From positions 1 to 32,535 of the forward strand of contig NZ_JANQOY010000135.1 of the NCBI RefSeq assembly GCF_028285565.1: 32,535 nt of DNA, given 5' to 3'. Made by a program: the position numbers and the translations under genes. The notes beneath the pieces were generated by a model. It saw only the letters and a list, made by a program, of their open reading frames with translations. It searched no databases and was not told where the DNA came from. Below are positions 8,553 through 17,335 of the stretch, piece by piece. The DNA comes from Acaryochloris sp. IP29b_bin.148. GTDB lineage: Bacteria; Cyanobacteriota; Cyanobacteriia; Thermosynechococcales; Thermosynechococcaceae. Numbering within the stretch: the stretch's first letter is position 1; every line of letters starts with the position of its first letter.

Positions 8553-11084
8553 ATGAATAGTCTGTGGAAAGCTTTAAACAATTTGCTATCACCTGAGCAA
8601 TATATACCGCATGGACATTGCTATCTATGGCAAACTCCTTTGGTCGGGTTACATGTGGTGAGTGATTTACTGATCGCTATTGCTTATTTTTCTATTCCTT
8701 TGATGCTAGTCTACTTCGTTTCCAAACGGAGCGATGTTCCTTTTCAAAATATATTTTTGCTGTTTGGGGCCTTTATTGTTCTGTGTGGTACGGGACATTT
8801 ATTGGAAATTTGGACTTTGTGGCACCCCGCCTATTGGTTATCTGGGACTGAGCAAGCCCTGACGGCGCTCGTCTCCTGTGTTACAGCGACCGAGATGGCC
8901 ACTCAATTGCCAAAATTTTTATCGCTAAAAACACCGGAACAATTGGAAGCCATCAACAAGGTGTTGCAACAAGAGATTCGGGAACGACAACGCGCAGAAG
9001 TTGAACTCCGAACCTTGAATGACAGTTTAGAAATATTGGTTCAAGAACGGACCGCCAAATTACAAAAATCTGCTGAGCGAGAGCAGGCATTTTCAGGGAT
9101 TATTCAGCGAATGCGGCAAACTTTGGATATCCAAACCATTTTTGCTGATACGACTGAGGAATTAAGACAGTTTATGGGTTGTGATCGCACCTTAGTGTAT
9201 CAATTTAAATCCGATTGGAGTGGCACCTTAGTGGCTGAATCCGTAAGCCCCAATAGCCCTTCGATCATGGCACTCAAGGCGACAAGACCGGGAGCACAAA
9301 CAGCCGATATTTCCCCAACAGCGGGCATTAAACAAATCCTCACTCAGACCTATCAGTATGAATTTGCCTTGGGAGATACGGGTCAAGCGATGAGTTGCAA
9401 CGTCATTCCTGATGTCAAAGAATTTGGTTTTGATCCTTATACCCTGAAAGTTTTAGAACGATTAAAGATCAAATCATACCTGGTGCTTCCCATTGTCGAT
9501 GGCACTCATCTGTGGGGGTTACTCATGGCCACCATAGATGTTGCCCCTTACGATTGGGATCCATCAGCCATTCAAATTATGACGCAAGTGGGGACGCAGT
9601 TAGGGGTAGCCGTTCAGCAGGCGGAATTATTAGTTCACTCTCAAAAGCAGGCAGAGGCACTGAAAGCAGCAAAAGAGGAGGCTGAAAGAGCAAACCGGGC
9701 CAAAAGCGATTTTTTAAGTCACATGAGTCACGAACTGCGCACGCCACTCAACGCCATTTTGGGTTATGCCCAATTGATGCAGCGGTCTGAACATTTAGCA
9801 AAGCAAGAGGCCCAGTACGTGCATACGATTAATCGCAGTGGCAACCACCTGTTAGCGCTGATCAATGATGTCCTGGAAATGTCCAAAATTGAGGCTGGAC
9901 AACTCCATCTCAAGGCCATGAGTTTTGATCTCTACAATCTCCTCACCGAACTGGAAGACCTGTTTAGTCTCAAAGCCGCCCATAAGCAGCTTCAGCTCTC
10001 GTTTCATGGTCAAGCCCATGTTCCTCGCTATATCAAGGCGGATCAAAGCAAGTTACGGCAAGTTTTAATTAACCTCCTAGGTAATGCCATTAAATTTACC
10101 CAGCAAGGGCAGATTGATTTATATGTTTCTGTGGACTCACAAATCCTATCCTTTGCCATCAGAGATACAGGGCCGGGAATTGACTCAGAGAGTTTGGATC
10201 AACTCTTCCATGCCTTTGAGCAGGGAAATGTGGGTCGGCAATCGAGAGAAGGAACTGGATTAGGACTCAGTATTAGCGAGCAATTTGTCAGGCTCATGGG
10301 AGGTGACCTCACCGTTCAGACACAAGAGGGGCAAGGATCGACCTTTACGTTCAATATTCCCTTAGTCGTTGCCACTGAAGTGATGATGGGCAATGACGCT
10401 ACGACTACCCTGCAGCCAGTTAGTTTAGCACCCGATCAACCTCAGTTTCGTATTTTAGTAGTCGACGATGAGCAAACGAATCGACAACCGCTCGTTGAGT
10501 TTTTGAACATGATGGGCTTTTCAGTGCAAGAAGCGGCGAATGGCCAAGCGGCGATCTCACTCTGGCAAGATTGGCAGCCCCATTTGATTTGGATGGATAT
10601 GCAGATGCCTGAAATGGATGGTTATCAAGCCACTCAGCAGATTAAGGCAGCAGTACAGGGTAAAAACACGATTGTGATTGCTCTTACTGCCAGTGTATTT
10701 GAAGAGAACAAGCAAAAAGTCCTGGACGCAGGATGTGATGACTTCGTGCGTAAACCCTTTCAGCAAAATGAAGTCCTGCAAAAAATGGCAGCGCATTTAG
10801 GCGTGCAATATCTGACAACCTCAGATCATCAGTCCTTAAATGCCCATCAACAGATTTATTCATCTCAGCGAGACAGTCTGAATCCAGATAGCTTACGGGG
10901 AATGTCTCCAGAATGGCTGGAGGAATTTGGCCAACGGGCAAAGCAAGGAAATGATCTACGGCTGCTGCAACTCATTGAGCAAATTCCACCCGAATACCAG
11001 GCGACAGCCAGTGAGTTAACTCACTTAATTGAAAATTATCAATTTGAACAACTGGTCCAACTGATTGAATTCCCTGCCCACTAA
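8553..11084 (+). CDS. Hybrid histidine kinase with ethylene-receptor-like N-terminus and CBCR-like GAF
   Basis: A membrane sensor kinase of about 843 aa. Three N-terminal membrane segments resemble the ETR1 ethylene-binding domain, including FIVLCGTGHLLEIW, where the Cys-x3-His spacing matches the copper-ligand pair of ETR1. A coiled coil (about 125-180) leads to a GAF domain (about 185-360) of phytochrome/cyanobacteriochrome style (CDRTLVYQFKSDWSGTLVAE). The usual chromophore Cys-His is Tyr-Thr here (FDPYTLKVLERLKI). HisKA follows (SHMSHELRTPLNAILGY, about 390), then HATPase_c (N box NLLGNAIKFT, G boxes DTGPGID and GTGLGLS). A receiver with phosphoacceptor Asp is near residue 681 (WMDMQMPEMDG), with a short C-terminal helical tail. 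ATG 8553 is preferred over an in-frame TTG at 8541. The next gene is a REC-GGDEF protein 25 bp downstream. Confidence 0.9.
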   Translation: MNSLWKALNNLLSPEQYIPHGHCYLWQTPLVGLHVVSDLLIAIAYFSIPLMLVYFVSKRSDVPFQNIFLLFGAFIVLCGTGHLLEIWTLWHPAYWLSGTEQALTALVSCVTATEMATQLPKFLSLKTPEQLEAINKVLQQEIRERQRAEVELRTLNDSLEILVQERTAKLQKSAEREQAFSGIIQRMRQTLDIQTIFADTTEELRQFMGCDRTLVYQFKSDWSGTLVAESVSPNSPSIMALKATRPGAQTADISPTAGIKQILTQTYQYEFALGDTGQAMSCNVIPDVKEFGFDPYTLKVLERLKIKSYLVLPIVDGTHLWGLLMATIDVAPYDWDPSAIQIMTQVGTQLGVAVQQAELLVHSQKQAEALKAAKEEAERANRAKSDFLSHMSHELRTPLNAILGYAQLMQRSEHLAKQEAQYVHTINRSGNHLLALINDVLEMSKIEAGQLHLKAMSFDLYNLLTELEDLFSLKAAHKQLQLSFHGQAHVPRYIKADQSKLRQVLINLLGNAIKFTQQGQIDLYVSVDSQILSFAIRDTGPGIDSESLDQLFHAFEQGNVGRQSREGTGLGLSISEQFVRLMGGDLTVQTQEGQGSTFTFNIPLVVATEVMMGNDATTTLQPVSLAPDQPQFRILVVDDEQTNRQPLVEFLNMMGFSVQEAANGQAAISLWQDWQPHLIWMDMQMPEMDGYQATQQIKAAVQGKNTIVIALTASVFEENKQKVLDAGCDDFVRKPFQQNEVLQKMAAHLGVQYLTTSDHQSLNAHQQIYSSQRDSLNPDSLRGMSPEWLEEFGQRAKQGNDLRLLQLIEQIPPEYQATASELTHLIENYQFEQLVQLIEFPAH

Positions 11085-11109
11085 ATCCCACGAAATAAGA
11101 GGTATCCAA

Positions 11110-12207
11110 ATGATTTCTACCCCCAATGACGTAAACAGAGATAGTTTAGACACAGATATAACTGAATATCATGCGAATATCAAAACAGAAATTGCTAGTC
11201 CTGCAACATCTGTACTACCGAGTGACATTCTGATCGTAGACGATACGTTAGAGAATTTACGGCTGCTCTCTAATATGCTGGCCATTCAGGGGTATAGCAT
11301 TCGCAAAGCGACAGGGGGTGAAATGGCCCTCAATTCTGTGGATTCGCTTCTGCCTGATTTAATCTTGCTAGACATTCTGATGCCTGACTTAAATGGCTAT
11401 GAGGTCTGTATTCAACTTAAGAAAAATCCCCAAACAGCTAATATCCCAATTATTTTCCTCAGTGCCCTAGATGACCCATTGGATAAGGTCAAAGCCTTCG
11501 AAGTCGGCGGTGTAGACTATTTAACTAAACCGTTCCAATTAGAAGAGGTTTTAGCTAGAGTTCATAACCAACTGTCCTTAAAGGATGCTCAAGAAAAAGT
11601 CTTGGCCTTAAATGCTCAACTGCAACAGTGGGTGCTTGATCAAAATCGGCAGCTCCATCAGGCCAACAGTCAATTGCTAGAAACTAGTAATACCGACTAT
11701 CTAACGACCCTTCCTAACCGCATCTCGTTTCTCACAAGACTGGAGCAATCCCTCTTTCTAGCCAAGATGGATGAATCTTACCAATTTGCTGTGCTGTATT
11801 TGGACTGCGATCGCTTTAGATCTATCAACCAAACCTTTGGTTACTCCGTTGGAGATAAGCTGTTGAAACAGATAGCGATGGGGTTAACAGAAGTGATTCA
11901 GCCCGACGATATGTTAGCCCGTATTGGTGGAGACGAGTTTGCCATTCTTCTCAACACGCTAACCGATGAGAGCAGTGTCAATCAGTTAGCAGAAAAGGTT
12001 TTCGCACTCTTAGAGCAACCTTTTCAAATCCAGGGTAACGAAATAACCATCGCCGCTAGTATTGGTATTGACTATGGAAGCGCTAAGTATGCTATCGCAG
12101 ATAATATTCTGAAAAATGCTGAAATAGCGATGTACAGTGCTAAAGACAAAGGTGAGGGTCACTACACCATCTATAATCCCTTAATTCAAGGTGGTGGATG
12201 CAAATAA
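11110..12207 (+). CDS. Response regulator with diguanylate cyclase (REC-GGDEF)
   Basis: A 365-aa protein. The receiver domain (about residues 35-155) has ILIVDDT, the phosphoacceptor in LLDILMPDLNGYE and the conserved Lys in YLTKPF. A Gln-rich coiled-coil linker (about 165-195) joins it to a complete GGDEF domain with NTDYLTTLPNR at its start, an intact RIGGDEF active site and the closing MYSAKDKGEGHY. No RxxD inhibitory site is seen upstream of GGDEF. The product should be a phosphorylation-controlled cyclic-di-GMP synthase, probably driven by the kinase encoded just upstream. ATG 11110 is chosen for its AAGAGG site; the longer in-frame TTG at 11065 overlaps the kinase gene. Its last 27 bp overlap the convergent STM4011-type gene. 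Confidence 0.92.
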   Translation: MISTPNDVNRDSLDTDITEYHANIKTEIASPATSVLPSDILIVDDTLENLRLLSNMLAIQGYSIRKATGGEMALNSVDSLLPDLILLDILMPDLNGYEVCIQLKKNPQTANIPIIFLSALDDPLDKVKAFEVGGVDYLTKPFQLEEVLARVHNQLSLKDAQEKVLALNAQLQQWVLDQNRQLHQANSQLLETSNTDYLTTLPNRISFLTRLEQSLFLAKMDESYQFAVLYLDCDRFRSINQTFGYSVGDKLLKQIAMGLTEVIQPDDMLARIGGDEFAILLNTLTDESSVNQLAEKVFALLEQPFQIQGNEITIAASIGIDYGSAKYAIADNILKNAEIAMYSAKDKGEGHYTIYNPLIQGGGCK

Positions 12208-13071
12208 GCGGCCAGATGCTTCGGGAATCCGTTCTAAGAGACCAGTGCCAAACATTTGATCTAACCCTAACTCAGGCATATGGACATAACCAATATGACA
12301 ACGGCAGGTGGCATTTGTGCAGGGCCGCGCATATAGGGCTTGCTCTAAGTCTGGTTGATAGAGATTGCCTATCTGCTCTGGGATAAAATGGCAGCGTCGC
12401 AGATTACCTTCACCATCGACAGAGAGAACGGACTCACCAGCACGGCAAGGATGTCCAAGACTGGGATAGACCTGATTGTTAATCCCAAAGAGGGGATCGA
12501 TGGCCGTAAACTGGGCAATGTCTTCAGAAGTATAGTAATCCGCTTGGCGCTTGTAGGCATTGACCCAGACATAAATCGAGTCTGGCAGGGCTTGACGAAG
12601 AGCTTGGGCTTCTGCTCGATGGGCTTTGAGGCCGACAATGCCGACGCTAAAACGGATCTGTCCTTCAATCAATCTTCGACATTGCTGGAGAAAATGCTGC
12701 CGTTTTACTTCCACGGGATGATAGGTTGTCCACAGGCCAAGTTTAGGTTTATGGCAAGCTTCAACCCACCCTAAAGCACAGGACAGATTAGTTTGAATGG
12801 CCACTTTTTCCACCTGCGGGCAGTGAGTGAGCCGTGCGATCTCACTCTGATACCAGGGATGAATCAGGGCCTCCCCCCACGGTGTAAACAAGACCCGGAT
12901 CCGATCGCCTGCTGGCCGCTGAAGAATCCAGTCCACAAAGCGCTTCAGGGCTTGGCGATCCTGATTGAGTTCGGTTGCCGTTTGCGATCGCTTGGCAAAG
13001 GGGCAGTACTCACAGCCATAATTACAGCTGACCAGTGGTCCCCGATAAAGCAACGTCAAATCTAGGCCCAT
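12181..13071 (-). CDS. STM4011-family radical SAM protein with SPASM/twitch-like tail
   Basis: About 296 aa from the ATG at 13071, which overlaps the STM4012 stop by 10 bp. The radical SAM motif CNYGCEYC places cluster cysteines at residues 16, 20 and 23. The C-terminal part carries Cys 209 and Cys 227 in the SPASM-like pattern CxnGx4C (ending GNLRRC), then Cys 251, 256 and 258 (PCTNATCRC). At least one auxiliary Fe-S cluster is therefore likely. I recognise it as the STM4011 family from its sequence and its place beside the other four families. The reaction and substrate are unknown. Radical SAM enzymes with such tails often modify peptides or catalyse dehydrogenations. An in-frame start at 13116 exists but lies deep inside STM4012. 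Confidence 0.88.
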   Translation of the reverse strand: MGLDLTLLYRGPLVSCNYGCEYCPFAKRSQTATELNQDRQALKRFVDWILQRPAGDRIRVLFTPWGEALIHPWYQSEIARLTHCPQVEKVAIQTNLSCALGWVEACHKPKLGLWTTYHPVEVKRQHFLQQCRRLIEGQIRFSVGIVGLKAHRAEAQALRQALPDSIYVWVNAYKRQADYYTSEDIAQFTAIDPLFGINNQVYPSLGHPCRAGESVLSVDGEGNLRRCHFIPEQIGNLYQPDLEQALYARPCTNATCRCHIGYVHMPELGLDQMFGTGLLERIPEASGRLFASTTLN

Positions 13072-14381
13072 GTGTAGGTCTCCATCCGATCCTGAACTTT
13101 CTGGGAATAGAGCCACGGCCCAATCGTATCCGATTGCTCCAGTCCAGCTGGGTTAAGGCAAAGATGGGTGGCGGTCTGCTCCCCTAATCCTAAATCCAAT
13201 AGCTCTGCTAATTCGGGTAAATCGGTGAATACAGGACGATGGAAGCGATGCTGATATCGCTGTAGATCGAGTCCTGACGACTGCAAGAGGGACTGAATGA
13301 CATAGCGACGGCGCTGATCGTTGGCATCCAGCTCAAACCCATACTCAGCGAATGGGAAGGCGGCGTCTGGACTGTCCATATAGGTATTGATGATGTTAGC
13401 AATCTGAGCCTTGCTCACCGCATATTCGCTGGCGTAGTGGAGCGACTGGGTATAGGACCGTGCCCCACATCCCAAGCCCACCATGCCGTCTTCTTGGCAG
13501 CAATAGACTGGACCTGTCCGATCCGTAGCGACAGGGGTGCGAAACATCCGCATGGACACTTGCTGGTACCCTTGAGCCACTAGCCAATCCCGAGCATAGC
13601 GGTAGTAGGAACGGCGCTGATCCTGCCAGCTTTTAGCGGAGCGTCCCAGACCCGTCAGAGGGCGAACGTAGAGCGGGTATAGATACAGCTCTTCCGGGTG
13701 AAATTGTAAGGCCGTTTCCAGAGAATACCGCCAAGTGTCGAGGGTTTGTCCGGGTAGTCCATAAATCAAATCAATATTGAGGATAGGGAAATCCCCATCG
13801 CGAATCTGGGCCAGGGCCTGTTGCGCTAATTCTGTGGGTTGGGGGCGTCCAGCTGCCGCTGTCTCGGCTGCGACAAAGCTCTGGATGCCGATACTGATCC
13901 GGTCGACATGATGCGATCGCAAACAGGCCAACTTGTCTGGCGTTAAGGTTCCAGGCGACACTTCCACTGAGATCGGCGTACTGGCCAGATCAACTCCCAT
14001 CGTGTTTGAGAGCAGATCAAACAGTGAGGATAACTGGTCGGGATGGAGAAGGGAGGGCGTTCCCCCACCTAGGGCTAAGCGCGCAAACTGGACGTCTCCT
14101 AGGCAGGACTTAATCACGTTTGCCTGACGAGCCAGAGTCTGCAAATAAGCTGCAATCACGTCTGACTGGGCGTGATGCTGGGTAAACAGATTACAAAAGC
14201 CACAGCGCATTTCACAAAAGGGAATATGCACATACAGAAATAGAGCCTGGCGATTTTCCTGAGCCCATAGCTCCTCCAGAGCATAACGTCGACTCAAAGG
14301 CCGATACGCCGTTTTATGCGGGTAGGAGTAGGCATAGGTTTGATAGGGAGCTGCCGACAGCATTGCTTGCAAAGAACTCAT
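13062..14381 (-). CDS. STM4012-family radical SAM protein (HemN/HemW-like)
   Basis: 439 aa. The N-terminal third carries YVHIPFCEMRCGFCNLF with the CxxxCxxC cysteines at 56, 60 and 63. The SAM-binding glycine region is LGGGTPS, and ISIGIQSF and LIYGLPGQT follow. These are the motifs of the coproporphyrinogen dehydrogenase-like (HemN/HemW) branch. The C-terminal part is also HemN-like in layout. It is not an obvious heme-synthesis gene, because it sits inside the STM4011-4015 block. Its ATG overlaps the STM4013 stop by 4 bp (ATGA) and its stop overlaps the STM4011 start by 10 bp, so translation of all three is probably coupled. It may be mis-annotated elsewhere as HemN. The substrate is unknown. 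Confidence 0.9.
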   Translation of the reverse strand: MSSLQAMLSAAPYQTYAYSYPHKTAYRPLSRRYALEELWAQENRQALFLYVHIPFCEMRCGFCNLFTQHHAQSDVIAAYLQTLARQANVIKSCLGDVQFARLALGGGTPSLLHPDQLSSLFDLLSNTMGVDLASTPISVEVSPGTLTPDKLACLRSHHVDRISIGIQSFVAAETAAAGRPQPTELAQQALAQIRDGDFPILNIDLIYGLPGQTLDTWRYSLETALQFHPEELYLYPLYVRPLTGLGRSAKSWQDQRRSYYRYARDWLVAQGYQQVSMRMFRTPVATDRTGPVYCCQEDGMVGLGCGARSYTQSLHYASEYAVSKAQIANIINTYMDSPDAAFPFAEYGFELDANDQRRRYVIQSLLQSSGLDLQRYQHRFHRPVFTDLPELAELLDLGLGEQTATHLCLNPAGLEQSDTIGPWLYSQKVQDRMETYTWA

Positions 14382-15187
14382 GGCTGACGCTCCGGCAGCA
14401 CAAACTCAGCATAGGGAACCGTCCAGACCACAGGATGACTGACCCGGTGGCCCACATACCCCGCCTCACCATAGGCCGTCCCATGATCCGAACAGAGAAT
14501 GCAGAGGGTAGAGGCCCGCTGCTGTAAGGCTGCAAATAAGGGAGGCAGTTGGCGATCAACGTAGGCTAAGGACGCTGCATGGGAGGCCCAAGAGTCGGAA
14601 GTGGCACCGGGCAGATACATATAGTTGGGTTGGTGTAAAGCTGAGATATTCACAAATAAAAAGACCCGCTGCTCAGTAGGTATCCTTTGTAAACAGGTGA
14701 CGGCAAGCTCGATCTGATGAGCCGTTGACTGGGGATCGGTTACGCCTAGAGCAGGAGTCCAATAGCGATCCATAAATAAACTGGGCAACGCCTGCCCCAA
14801 GGGGCTGAGCTGATTAAAGAACCCTACCCCGCCAATGCAGAGGGTTCGATAGCCCACCTGGGCCAGCCCGGTCACGATATCAGGGGCATCAAAGACGTAG
14901 GTGGTGGCATGGGTGGTTTCACTGCCAGGAAATTGGGCGGCAAATAAGCGGGGGTGCTGTCCTGGCGTAATCGGCGTGGGCAAAAAGCCCGCAAAAAAAG
15001 CCTGGTGGGCCGCATAGGTAAAGGTGGCTGGAGAATGGCGTTCTTCCCAGATGCCATCGGGCAGAAGAGAAGCTAGGAAAGGGGTCCGTCCGTCGGTGAT
15101 GCAAGTTTGGGCCACATCAAAGCGGAGGGTATCTAGCGTCATCAGCAGAATATCGTGGCTCCCCACTAGCTGGCACATATTGATCAT
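14378..15187 (-). CDS. STM4013/SEN3800-family hydrolase (alkaline phosphatase superfamily)
   Basis: 269 aa with the sulfatase/alkaline-phosphatase/phosphonate-hydrolase fold signature. A metal Asp lies in LLMTLDTLRFD (Asp 19), and a Thr nucleophile candidate lies in SPATFTYAAHQAF (Thr 55 or 57). LCSDHGTAYGE gives the metal-binding Asp-His pair (234-235), followed by GHRVSH (His 247 and 251). No signal peptide is seen, so it should act in the cytoplasm with its pathway partners. Known superfamily members cleave or transfer phosphate, sulfate or phosphonate esters, and the actual substrate here is unknown. It follows STM4014 by 28 bp with an AGGA site, and overlaps STM4012 by 4 bp. Confidence 0.88.
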   Translation of the reverse strand: MINMCQLVGSHDILLMTLDTLRFDVAQTCITDGRTPFLASLLPDGIWEERHSPATFTYAAHQAFFAGFLPTPITPGQHPRLFAAQFPGSETTHATTYVFDAPDIVTGLAQVGYRTLCIGGVGFFNQLSPLGQALPSLFMDRYWTPALGVTDPQSTAHQIELAVTCLQRIPTEQRVFLFVNISALHQPNYMYLPGATSDSWASHAASLAYVDRQLPPLFAALQQRASTLCILCSDHGTAYGEAGYVGHRVSHPVVWTVPYAEFVLPERQP

Positions 15188-15215
15188 TGGGGTTTCCTGT
15201 CACCCGCCACCCAGA

Positions 15216-16394
15216 TCATAAAGCATTGACCGGAAGCAGCTGCTGCAGCACCGTTTTAATTTCAGTGGTATAGGTATCCAACCCCCGCCAGGTCACCTGA
15301 GGTAATAAATCGCCAAAGGCATTCGCCTCCAAAACTTTGATCCGCCGATGATCCGAGAGCACAGCCACATCAACCCCAAGATGCAAACTGTGAGGAAAGA
15401 GTTGGGCAACCTGCTCACAATACGCTAGGACTTGATCCCAGACTGCCGTTCCCACCCGAGCGATAAGCTGTTCGGGGGAACTGCGTTGGTTGAGTAAATG
15501 CAGATTGGTCATCGGGCTATGACTCAGACGAACCACGGCCTGGCGGGCTTTGCCGCCAATCACCACAACCCGCAGATCACAGCTTTGCTGATTAAGGCCC
15601 ATTTTAGGCACCCAGGCTTCCACCTGCACCCGTTCTCGACAGAGCTGATCCACAATTGCCGCAATGGTGGACAGATCTTGGTACTGCTGAATTTTGCGAG
15701 AATTATATAGCTGTAGGGTTGGCCCTGTAGAGACGACTTCCACCGTTGTCCAGGCTTTAATTTTGGGGCCTTGCAGCGCCAATGCCATCACCCCAGAGGC
15801 AGAGGAACCGTGGGCTAACTTAATAAAAACTCGCCGACAGCCTGTGGCTTGCAGCCGATTGATCAGGGCATCAAAACAGGTGATGCTCCCCAAGGGCTGG
15901 GGGATGGGGATCTGTTGTTGTTGAAACAGCGCTTGGCAGAGAATTTTATCAAATAAGAGGGGGATTTCTGCAGGCGAAGCCATCCATCGGCTCACCCCTA
16001 TCTGGGTGATTTGGGTCTGCAGCTGAGCCAGAACTTGGCAAAACCCTAAATACCACTGCCGAGGATAGAGAATACGACCCGGTTGTTCCGGCAAGGCGAG
16101 GGCTGATTCGGCATCAATCCAGGGAGAGGCTTCAGCGGCAGCGGCGGTCACTCCCTGGGCAAGGATCAGTTTCTCTACGGTGAAATTCCGCCCAGGCGAT
16201 TCAATGCGCAGAATGGTCTGGGGGGTAAGCACGTGTTCTAAGCGGTGTGGCTGGGTCAACCAGTCCTGATAGGCAATCACCGTTGCTGGGGCCAGCCCTA
16301 ACTGTCTTAAGGCCGTCTGAAAATATTGAATCCGGGGACGCTCTGGATTCCCCAGCACCACAAAGTGAGGGGAATGGTCTGCACATCCACCCAC
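15216..16394 (-). CDS. STM4014-family ATP-grasp-like protein
   Basis: About 392 aa. The family is recognised from context and from ATP-grasp-type features. These are a Lys strand with a glycine/serine-rich loop (RRVFIKLAHGSSASGVMAL, about residues 192-210), a substrate strand DLRVVVIGGKARQAVVR, and a closing metal-binding segment LGVDVAVL...IKVLEANAFGD near the C-terminus. ATP-grasp enzymes ligate a carboxylate to an amine or thiol through an acyl phosphate, so this is the likely condensing step of the cluster. The start codon is GTG at 16394, two bases after the STM4015 stop, and no ATG is available near the family N-terminus (FVVLGNPERPRIQYFQ). The acceptor and donor are unknown. Confidence 0.85.
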   Translation of the reverse strand: MGGCADHSPHFVVLGNPERPRIQYFQTALRQLGLAPATVIAYQDWLTQPHRLEHVLTPQTILRIESPGRNFTVEKLILAQGVTAAAAEASPWIDAESALALPEQPGRILYPRQWYLGFCQVLAQLQTQITQIGVSRWMASPAEIPLLFDKILCQALFQQQQIPIPQPLGSITCFDALINRLQATGCRRVFIKLAHGSSASGVMALALQGPKIKAWTTVEVVSTGPTLQLYNSRKIQQYQDLSTIAAIVDQLCRERVQVEAWVPKMGLNQQSCDLRVVVIGGKARQAVVRLSHSPMTNLHLLNQRSSPEQLIARVGTAVWDQVLAYCEQVAQLFPHSLHLGVDVAVLSDHRRIKVLEANAFGDLLPQVTWRGLDTYTTEIKTVLQQLLPVNAL

Positions 16395-16396
16395 GG

Positions 16397-17335
16397 CTAT
16401 TCAGAAACAGCGATATATCGCCAAGTCTCACCATCATATTCGTCAGCTTCCTGGCGATCTGCCACATTAACGGTCAGGGGTAGGGCTTGGAGACGGGCCA
16501 TCATTGCCTCTGACAGATAATGATGATGAAGATCGAGCCTGTCGAGGGTGGGGAGATCAGGGCTAGCCAGTAAGGCTTCGGCCCCACGGTCTGTAAGAGT
16601 GCCCAGGGATAAATCTAGGGTGCTGAGTTGATTCAAAACGGGGGCAGTGGCGAGTGCGATCGCAATTTCGTCTGCTATTTGACTATCCCTTAGCCCCAGA
16701 TAGCGTAGCTGGGGAAAGCGTTCCCCAGCCAAAAGGATGGATAAATCCTCAACGGTCGTATCGCCTCCATAGTTATCTTCCCCCAACCATAATTCCAGGT
16801 GTTCCAGATTGGGAAGTTGGGCGGCACTAATATCTCGGACAACGGCAGCACTTAATCCCCCACTCTCAATCACTAGGGTTTGTAGATGTTCATGGGTGGG
16901 AATACCCAGCCGCAATCCTTCTCCACCGCGCACACCCAGATAGCGTAGCTGGGGATAGGCTAAAAAGAGGGGAGAAATATCCGTTTGCTGAATCCAAGAA
17001 ATTTCGCATTCCTCACCCACAATATCCCCGAGAAACAGTGCTTGGAGGTGGGGGAGTTGATCCTGGGCTGCGACCAAGGCTTCTACGATCGGCCTTGAAT
17101 CCACTTCAAAGCCTTCCCAGTCCCAGAGGCCAATCACGAGGTTCGTGACCTCACTGACGTGGGGCTCTTCAAAGAAAGCGGCCATTCGATCAAAAATTTT
17201 GATCTCAGAATCGTAATCGAGATCAGCGACGGTCAGCCGATACGCCGTATCAGCGGGATTCACTAAGCCTTCGTCAGGATTGTAGTTTTTGACGGGTTGC
17301 CCCATCAGCTCAGTTAAATGGTCTGCAATTGTCAT
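16397..17335 (-). CDS. STM4015-family leucine-rich-repeat protein
   Basis: 312 aa and the first gene of the five-gene block. After an N-terminal region (about 1-60) come at least seven LRR-like strands: VTNLVIGL, LPHLQALFLG, YPQLRYLGVRG, HEHLQTLVIES, LPNLEHLELWLG, FPQLRYLGLRD, LNQLSTLDLSLG and LPTLDRLDLHHH. The repeats are long and irregular. Two of them share an identical 21-base DNA stretch (16695-16715 and 16935-16955), which suggests recent internal duplication or strong codon constraint. The protein is acidic and has no signal peptide, so it is cytoplasmic. It has no visible catalytic motif. A scaffold or substrate-presenting role for the neighbouring radical SAM and ATP-grasp enzymes is inference. 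Confidence 0.87.
   Translation of the reverse strand: MTIADHLTELMGQPVKNYNPDEGLVNPADTAYRLTVADLDYDSEIKIFDRMAAFFEEPHVSEVTNLVIGLWDWEGFEVDSRPIVEALVAAQDQLPHLQALFLGDIVGEECEISWIQQTDISPLFLAYPQLRYLGVRGGEGLRLGIPTHEHLQTLVIESGGLSAAVVRDISAAQLPNLEHLELWLGEDNYGGDTTVEDLSILLAGERFPQLRYLGLRDSQIADEIAIALATAPVLNQLSTLDLSLGTLTDRGAEALLASPDLPTLDRLDLHHHYLSEAMMARLQALPLTVNVADRQEADEYDGETWRYIAVSE

Follow-up and report, generated by a model that had tools for sequence, protein, structure and literature searches.

What five adjacent genes of a cyanobacterium accomplish together, when the protein families they encode are named after Salmonella STM4011-STM4015, is the question raised by a contig of Acaryochloris sp. IP29b_bin.148 (assembly GCF_028285565.1, contig NZ_JANQOY010000135.1), whose analysed stretch of 32,535 nucleotides is referred to here as the window. 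From the letters of this DNA, the original prediction had read the genes at 12181-17335 as a dedicated pathway, with two radical S-adenosylmethionine (SAM) enzymes, built around a leucine-rich-repeat (LRR) protein. On the analysis presented here, the block is, if by a narrow balance, probably a maturation or biosynthesis system that acts on the C-terminal tail of this LRR protein, STM4015, with either a carrier or a modified protein as the outcome. Family membership was assigned by the curated bit-score cut-offs of NCBIfam, and all five window proteins lie above theirs, which bears out the match to the STM4011-STM4015 families and, at family level, the presence of two radical SAM enzymes (STM4011 and STM4012). 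The spacing of the five minus-strand genes (a 2-bp gap, a 28-bp gap, a 4-bp overlap and a 10-bp overlap) proved exact on re-checking. Three of the five families carry only the label 'hypothetical equivalog' at NCBI. The features of the block are as follows.

16397..17335, minus strand: STM4015-family LRR protein of 312 amino acids (NF038076, 366.2 bits against a cut-off of 275).
16400..16420, minus strand: C-terminal tail of STM4015, RYIAVSE, with the conserved Glu312 as last residue (Glu ends 112 of 115 closed family matches scoring at least 150).
15216..16394, minus strand: STM4014, predicted ATP-grasp ligase of 392 amino acids, GTG start (NF038074, 385.2 bits against 175).
14378..15187, minus strand: STM4013, hydrolase of the alkaline-phosphatase/sulfatase superfamily, with Thr57 at the nucleophile position (NF038075, 411.6 bits against 250).
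13062..14381, minus strand: STM4012, HemN-like radical SAM enzyme (NF006067, 602.9 bits against 380).
12181..13071, minus strand: STM4011, radical SAM enzyme with SPASM/twitch-like cysteines (NF038073, 402.7 bits against 200).

The five-gene block is a conserved unit. Among 292 genomes sampled evenly across the phylum of the window, the same four (the window's own, G000, together with G024, G042 and G125) exceed the cut-off for every one of the five families, and three more possess only a distant STM4013 relative of 155-163 bits, below the cut-off. In a Streptomyces-family sample of 86 genomes, STM4015 is present in 41 and STM4011 in 38, all of which fall within those 41. The families are thus found together in both samples rather than mostly apart, which suggests that the pathway is indeed a dedicated one, as had been predicted. 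A genome scan seeded with STM4013, from which the best 80 of at least 575 confirmed relatives were kept as loci, recovered the complete five-family set in 63 of the 80, several of the other 17 reaching contig ends. Because all five families recur in these 63 loci, and because the same gene order is found on plasmid records of Methylobacterium, Deinococcus, Paenibacillus, Salmonella and Streptomyces, the arrangement cannot be put down to chance. Complete sets are distributed across nine phyla, namely Cyanobacteriota (the window), Actinomycetota, Myxococcota, Planctomycetota, Chloroflexota, Acidobacteriota, Pseudomonadota, Deinococcota and Bacillota, several being known from metagenome bins. Incomplete sets also occur: a Bacteroides finegoldii plasmid carries STM4015, STM4014 and STM4011, with STM4013 and STM4012 as fragments only, and in genome G312 (locus L159), counted among those 38, STM4011 is split into several separate frames, the pieces of which fall below the cut-off and probably represent a broken copy, with the rest of the set present.

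This unit is composed of two modules, STM4015-STM4014 and STM4013-STM4012-STM4011. STM4014 is never found without STM4015 in the 80 loci and directly follows it on the same strand in 64 of 68 cases, with one of the four exceptions (L083) being, at least in part, an artefact of open frames. The STM4014-STM4015 pair of myxobacterial and planctomycetal loci lies on the strand opposite to the other three genes, and each of the four genomes in which the trio stands by itself (L026, L036, L062 and L075) has STM4015 matches at another place. Of six unlinked STM4015 copies inspected, four are adjoined by STM4014 (L120, L121, L123 and L126); it was not seen beside those of L122 and L124 within the short stretches available. 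The predicted pathway built around a repeat protein therefore stands as a dedicated five-family unit but not as a single one, as the ligase pairs specifically with STM4015. Two to four STM4015 copies per enzyme set are found in 32 of the 80 loci, and tandem arrays of six (L163, genome G301) and five (L160, genome G329) copies, all of which end in Glu, precede one STM4014-4011 set; such multiple copies per enzyme set would suit substrates.

The conserved terminal Glu of STM4015 is a feature new to this analysis. Only L029, L038 and L042 depart from it among the 115 closed matches, and the usual tail resembles RYxAVxE, with Val or Leu at position -3 in 92% of these copies, Ala or Ser at -4 in 80%, Tyr or Phe at -6 in 94% and Arg at -7 in 76%. 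Further copies end in Glu in 11 of 12 distinct cases, in 4 of 4, and in 23 of 24 scoring at least 150 in picked regions. As controls, STM4011, STM4013 and STM4014 have no dominant last residue, and neighbouring mechanical open frames, a rough control, end in Glu in 82 of 1835 cases (4.5%). In an alignment of selected rows, the stretch preceding the tail varies in both length and letters and position 312 is invariant; the rows of the 70-row and 61-row alignments were chosen by hand and the three copies lacking Glu are absent from them, so that 112 of 115 is the count to be relied upon. The AlphaFold2 (AF2) model of STM4015 has a mean predicted local distance difference test score (pLDDT) of 95.2, and the closest solved fold is 2RA8 (Q64V53, Bacteroides fragilis; Foldseek E 7.8e-23, 32% identity; profile E 2.2e-72), an uncharacterised structural-genomics entry sharing the same LRR fold. 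A variable recognition face on the LRR was considered but is not supported, as conservation extends to many of the loop positions that follow the strands. The STM4015 copies of G125, a class-mate of the window's genome, are nearly identical to those of a Nostoc locus (L028), and in this analysis the cyanobacterial placement of the window is based on this resemblance rather than on marker genes.

The constant partner of this tail, STM4014, is, as judged from its predicted fold, an ATP-grasp ligase of the LysX/ArgX/RimK type. When its AF2 model (pLDDT 93.7) was compared with 350,542 PDB chains using Foldseek, ranks 1-22 were all occupied by ArgX, PsnB, RimK or LysX chains, with ArgX crystallised with LysW at ranks 1 and 2 and PsnB with its precursor filling most of ranks 3-16. 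A profile search of solved relatives placed LysX first (3.4e-4) and biotin carboxylase next (0.0024). Ten residues (D149, K150, K192, D273, R275, R289, T296, N297, D342 and N358) are invariant in all 43 aligned rows. RimK is an ATP-grasp ligase that acts on the C-terminal glutamate of ribosomal protein S6. In common with it, STM4014 aligns profile to profile over the ATP-grasp core of nine RimK proteins, its TNLHL pairing with RSNLH and its D342/E356/N358 with the D/E/N of RimK; unlike it, STM4014 is not called by the RimK-family model TIGR00768 at E 0.01, and RimK lacks associated radical enzymes. The closest parallel lies in the LysW/LysX and ArgW/ArgX amino-group carrier systems, in which, according to PMC10433800, ArgX and LysX attach an amino acid to the γ-carboxyl of the C-terminal Glu of a carrier protein. 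Like the present block, these systems pair a Glu-ended carrier with an adjacent ATP-grasp ligase, and the ligases share one fold. However, STM4015 is a 312-residue LRR protein, and where the carrier pathway employs a kinase, a reductase, an aminotransferase and a peptidase, the block has a hydrolase of the alkaline-phosphatase type and two radical SAM enzymes.

In STM4011, the motifs CxxxCxxC and CX4CXC are found in all 39 aligned rows and CX9-15GX4C in 38, with all three present in 38 of the 39. A CxxxCxxC motif combined with CX9-15GX4C and a later Cys is what we take to be the SPASM/twitch signature. STM4011 thus resembles maturases of the SkfB type, to which it gives a weak profile match (E 0.0095, residues 202-267), in its radical SAM core, CX9-15GX4C motif and further Cys, but it differs from them in that no named SPASM family of NCBIfam reaches its cut-off. 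SPASM enzymes act mostly on peptides, and the cysteines of STM4011 would fit a peptide or protein substrate.

It is because a conserved Glu end adjoins a ligase of the ArgX/LysX kind that chemistry on the tail is proposed, and the earlier suggestion that the LRR protein could itself be the substrate gains ground from the near-invariant C-terminal Glu and its LysX/ArgX/RimK-like partner. Beneath the proposal lie direct observations of the linkage, the two-module architecture, the terminal Glu, the superfamilies and the active-site residues. STM4014 would phosphorylate a carboxylate of Glu312 and couple it to an amine, which is probably that of an amino acid. The SPASM/twitch-type STM4011 and the HemN/NocN-like STM4012 would modify either the group so attached or the RYxAVx residues adjoining it, and STM4013, as a metal- and Thr-dependent phospho- or sulfohydrolase, would perform a finishing or release step, in which a Cof-type HAD phosphatase may sometimes join. 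The presumed order is ligation, radical rework and then hydrolysis, and the product could either be released, with STM4015 as a carrier, or be retained on the LRR protein as a modification. Set against the definition of a RiPP pathway, in which linked enzymes modify a gene-encoded substrate, STM4015 offers a conserved tail and multiple copies, its modification being so far a prediction.

The chief rival to this proposal, which we consider unlikely, holds that the enzymes make a free small molecule and that STM4015 does no more than dock or regulate them, its last Glu being a structural cap or a docking contact. LRR proteins are classic binding modules, and the inner-face loops after the strands of STM4015 are conserved, and so is much of the surface of the LRR, as might equally be expected of a pure scaffold. 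Furthermore, AF2 packs the tail (residues 301-310 have a mean pLDDT of 95, the last two 83), which may therefore cap the structure instead of projecting from it as a free arm. The three orphan STM4015 copies of the Streptomyces-family sample (G306, G323 and G363, where STM4011 is unmatched) all keep the terminal Glu; the tail is therefore not immediately lost when STM4011 is absent. Other observations likewise weigh against tail chemistry. The last residue of STM4012 is also biased, being Arg or Lys in 63 of 77 copies. The fold comparison of STM4014 discriminates only modestly, with a template-modelling (TM) score of about 0.54, identities of 11-15% and D-Ala-D-Ala ligase appearing from rank 23 (2.4e-10), and the alignment with RimK (hhalign probability 79%, E 1.8e-6) comes from one profile with no control profile. 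The EDWGE ending of LysW is found in none of 70 aligned STM4015 rows, nor is GSWGR, the ligase motif that reads it, in any of 43 STM4014 rows, and unlike LysW the LRR protein has no zinc ribbon, the window copy containing one Cys and no CxxC. Finally, STM4013 occurs without the other four families in five of 86 loci, and of the five genomes or records behind these that were searched for STM4015, three have none (L020, L041 and L046); at L047 STM4013 also stands alone, yet a STM4015 match lies elsewhere in the genome. Nevertheless, a cap poorly explains why the chain ends almost always exactly at Glu after a variable linker, why its constant companion is a ligase with close relatives that work on ends of this kind, or why one to six STM4015 copies accompany a single enzyme set.

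A less probable alternative, and one to which we give little credence, retains the ligase but removes the separate amine, such that STM4014 would make side-chain esters or amides within STM4015 in the manner of the graspetides. PsnB and MdnC have the fold of STM4014 and are ATP-grasp ligases with peptide substrates, and the prominence of PsnB with its precursor in the fold search speaks in its favour. Despite this, it is the ArgX-LysW pair that heads the fold search, and in the tail no residue but the terminal Glu is near-universal, nor is a conserved Thr, Ser or Lys partner to be seen. In addition, no short precursor peptide is seen beside the window block, where the candidate acceptor is instead a folded LRR protein.

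The remaining explanations concern the other enzymes, and neither is at all credible. STM4013 scores 30.4 against the Pfam Sulfatase cut-off of 25, and its residues T57, D19, D234 and H235 are invariant in 42 rows. Its superfamily and its linkage to a radical SAM enzyme would invite the view that STM4011 is an anaerobic sulfatase-maturating enzyme converting a Cys or Ser of STM4013 to formylglycine, a reaction that needs one of these residues at the nucleophile position; this was rejected, since the position is held by the invariant Thr57, within FTYAAH. Equally improbable is a place for the block in heme metabolism, with STM4012 as an ordinary HemN or HemW. The homology is clear (HemN, 1olt, E 1.4e-57; NocN, 9p2u, E 2.8e-38) and the HemN architecture and CxxxCxxC motif (43 of 43 rows) are shared with HemN, HutW and NocN, but STM4012 scores far below the curated cut-offs of HemN (143 against 324.95 bits), HemW (133.8 against 205.4) and HutW (139.4 against 400) and far above that of its own family, possesses an N-terminal YP.K.AY motif of its own (38 of 43 rows) and travels with four families unconnected with heme; 288 of the 292 genomes lack it. 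The description 'HemN-like' accordingly holds for its ancestry and fails for ordinary membership of these families. A defence-system reading was also set aside, PADLOC having returned generic radical SAM matches only (pVip and PDC-M51A).

Several observations concern the genes found around these enzymes. In Bacteroides finegoldii, STM4011 and a Cof-type HAD phosphatase form a single fused protein (L127, 10216-11781); such a phosphatase is the next gene in Salmonella (L012, 11877-12611) and lies near the set in Deinococcus (L009, 13410-14237); HAD proteins stand beside six other loci, one of the six having been tested with Pfam. STM4013 without the other four is exemplified by L011 (9001-9795), L041 and L046, and the lone copy of Streptomyces albidoflavus has as neighbours a NUDIX hydrolase and a lasso B2 protein that is transglutaminase-like. 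In 42 of 86 loci the STM set is accompanied both by a DUF6745 protein and by a protein of about 100 amino acids (e.g. L008, 5504-6829). The smaller of these carries TGHxH, HEEH and QREY motifs and matches phrog_27831, the function of which is unannotated. Two pairs of this kind lie elsewhere in the genome of the window (L115, 2768-4301 on contig C48; L116, 2055-3663 on contig C89), and DUF6745 is present in 23 of the 292 genomes, among them three of the four that carry the STM set. Both neighbours have conserved C-termini of their own: DUF6745 proteins end in Thr, preceded by Glu or Gln, in 41 of 42 loci, and the small proteins end in Asp in 42 of 42. Seven Actinomadura loci (L061, L068, L086, L088, L091, L092 and L093) have a gene for an NlpA-type lipoprotein close to those for STM4015, at a median of 19 bp from the nearest core frame (Pfam-tested on L061 only); if its product serves as a methionine importer, this would fit the demand for SAM.

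In the window itself, the block is bordered upstream by a 98-amino-acid frame without a Pfam match and a cupin protein, and downstream the 3' end of STM4011 overlaps a convergent response-regulator/GGDEF gene (11065-12207, plus strand) by 27 bp. No Rfam family was found inside the block, and promoter-like and terminator-like sites do not exceed those of shuffled sequence.

How the block reached this genome was assessed with trees. The concatenated trio groups largely by phylum, with 7 changes over 7 groups (the minimum being 6) and 8 in the other tree, and after 28 of 74 rows were dropped (four long branches and 24 close relatives) an approximately unbiased (AU) test does not reject joining the window with five other cyanobacteria (p-AU 0.356). 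The spread by transfer that the original prediction had suggested is thus not shown for this genome; the patchy occurrence and plasmid copies fit gain and loss, without proving transfer into it. A record titled Comamonas sp. KCTC 72670 (L030) sits inside Myxococcus in the tree, which may reflect a wrong label, contamination or recent transfer. At the sensitivity of megablast, none of 5,426 E. coli genomes contains a near match to the Salmonella version, viral contigs yielded no STM4013 relative, and among phage records the STM4013 search gave only three, labelled Salmonella or E. coli.

Among the papers available to it, a literature search found none describing the product of the block, none on DUF6745, on 2RA8 or on 'STM401x family' names, and none combining radical SAM, leucine-rich repeat and ATP-grasp. 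Two of these papers mention STM4011-STM4015, in passing: STM4013.S is among sigma54-bound sites (PMC3844500), and STM4015 has a branch-test q of 0.0693 for Typhi (PMC2784778).

If chemistry on the STM4015 tail is correct, a mechanism would be assigned to five protein families that occur together in nine phyla, including in Salmonella, and the model makes one simple prediction, an added mass on the last residue of STM4015. We know of no earlier LRR protein acting as a covalent platform for radical chemistry, of which STM4015 would then be the first. In its fullest form, to which we hold only tentatively, the system may employ LRR carriers whose Glu is loaded by a LysX-like ligase, with the load reworked by two radical SAM enzymes and freed or finished by a hydrolase, so that a single enzyme set serving up to six tandem LRR copies might yield a cofactor, a signal, an antibiotic or an LRR protein with a built-in group.

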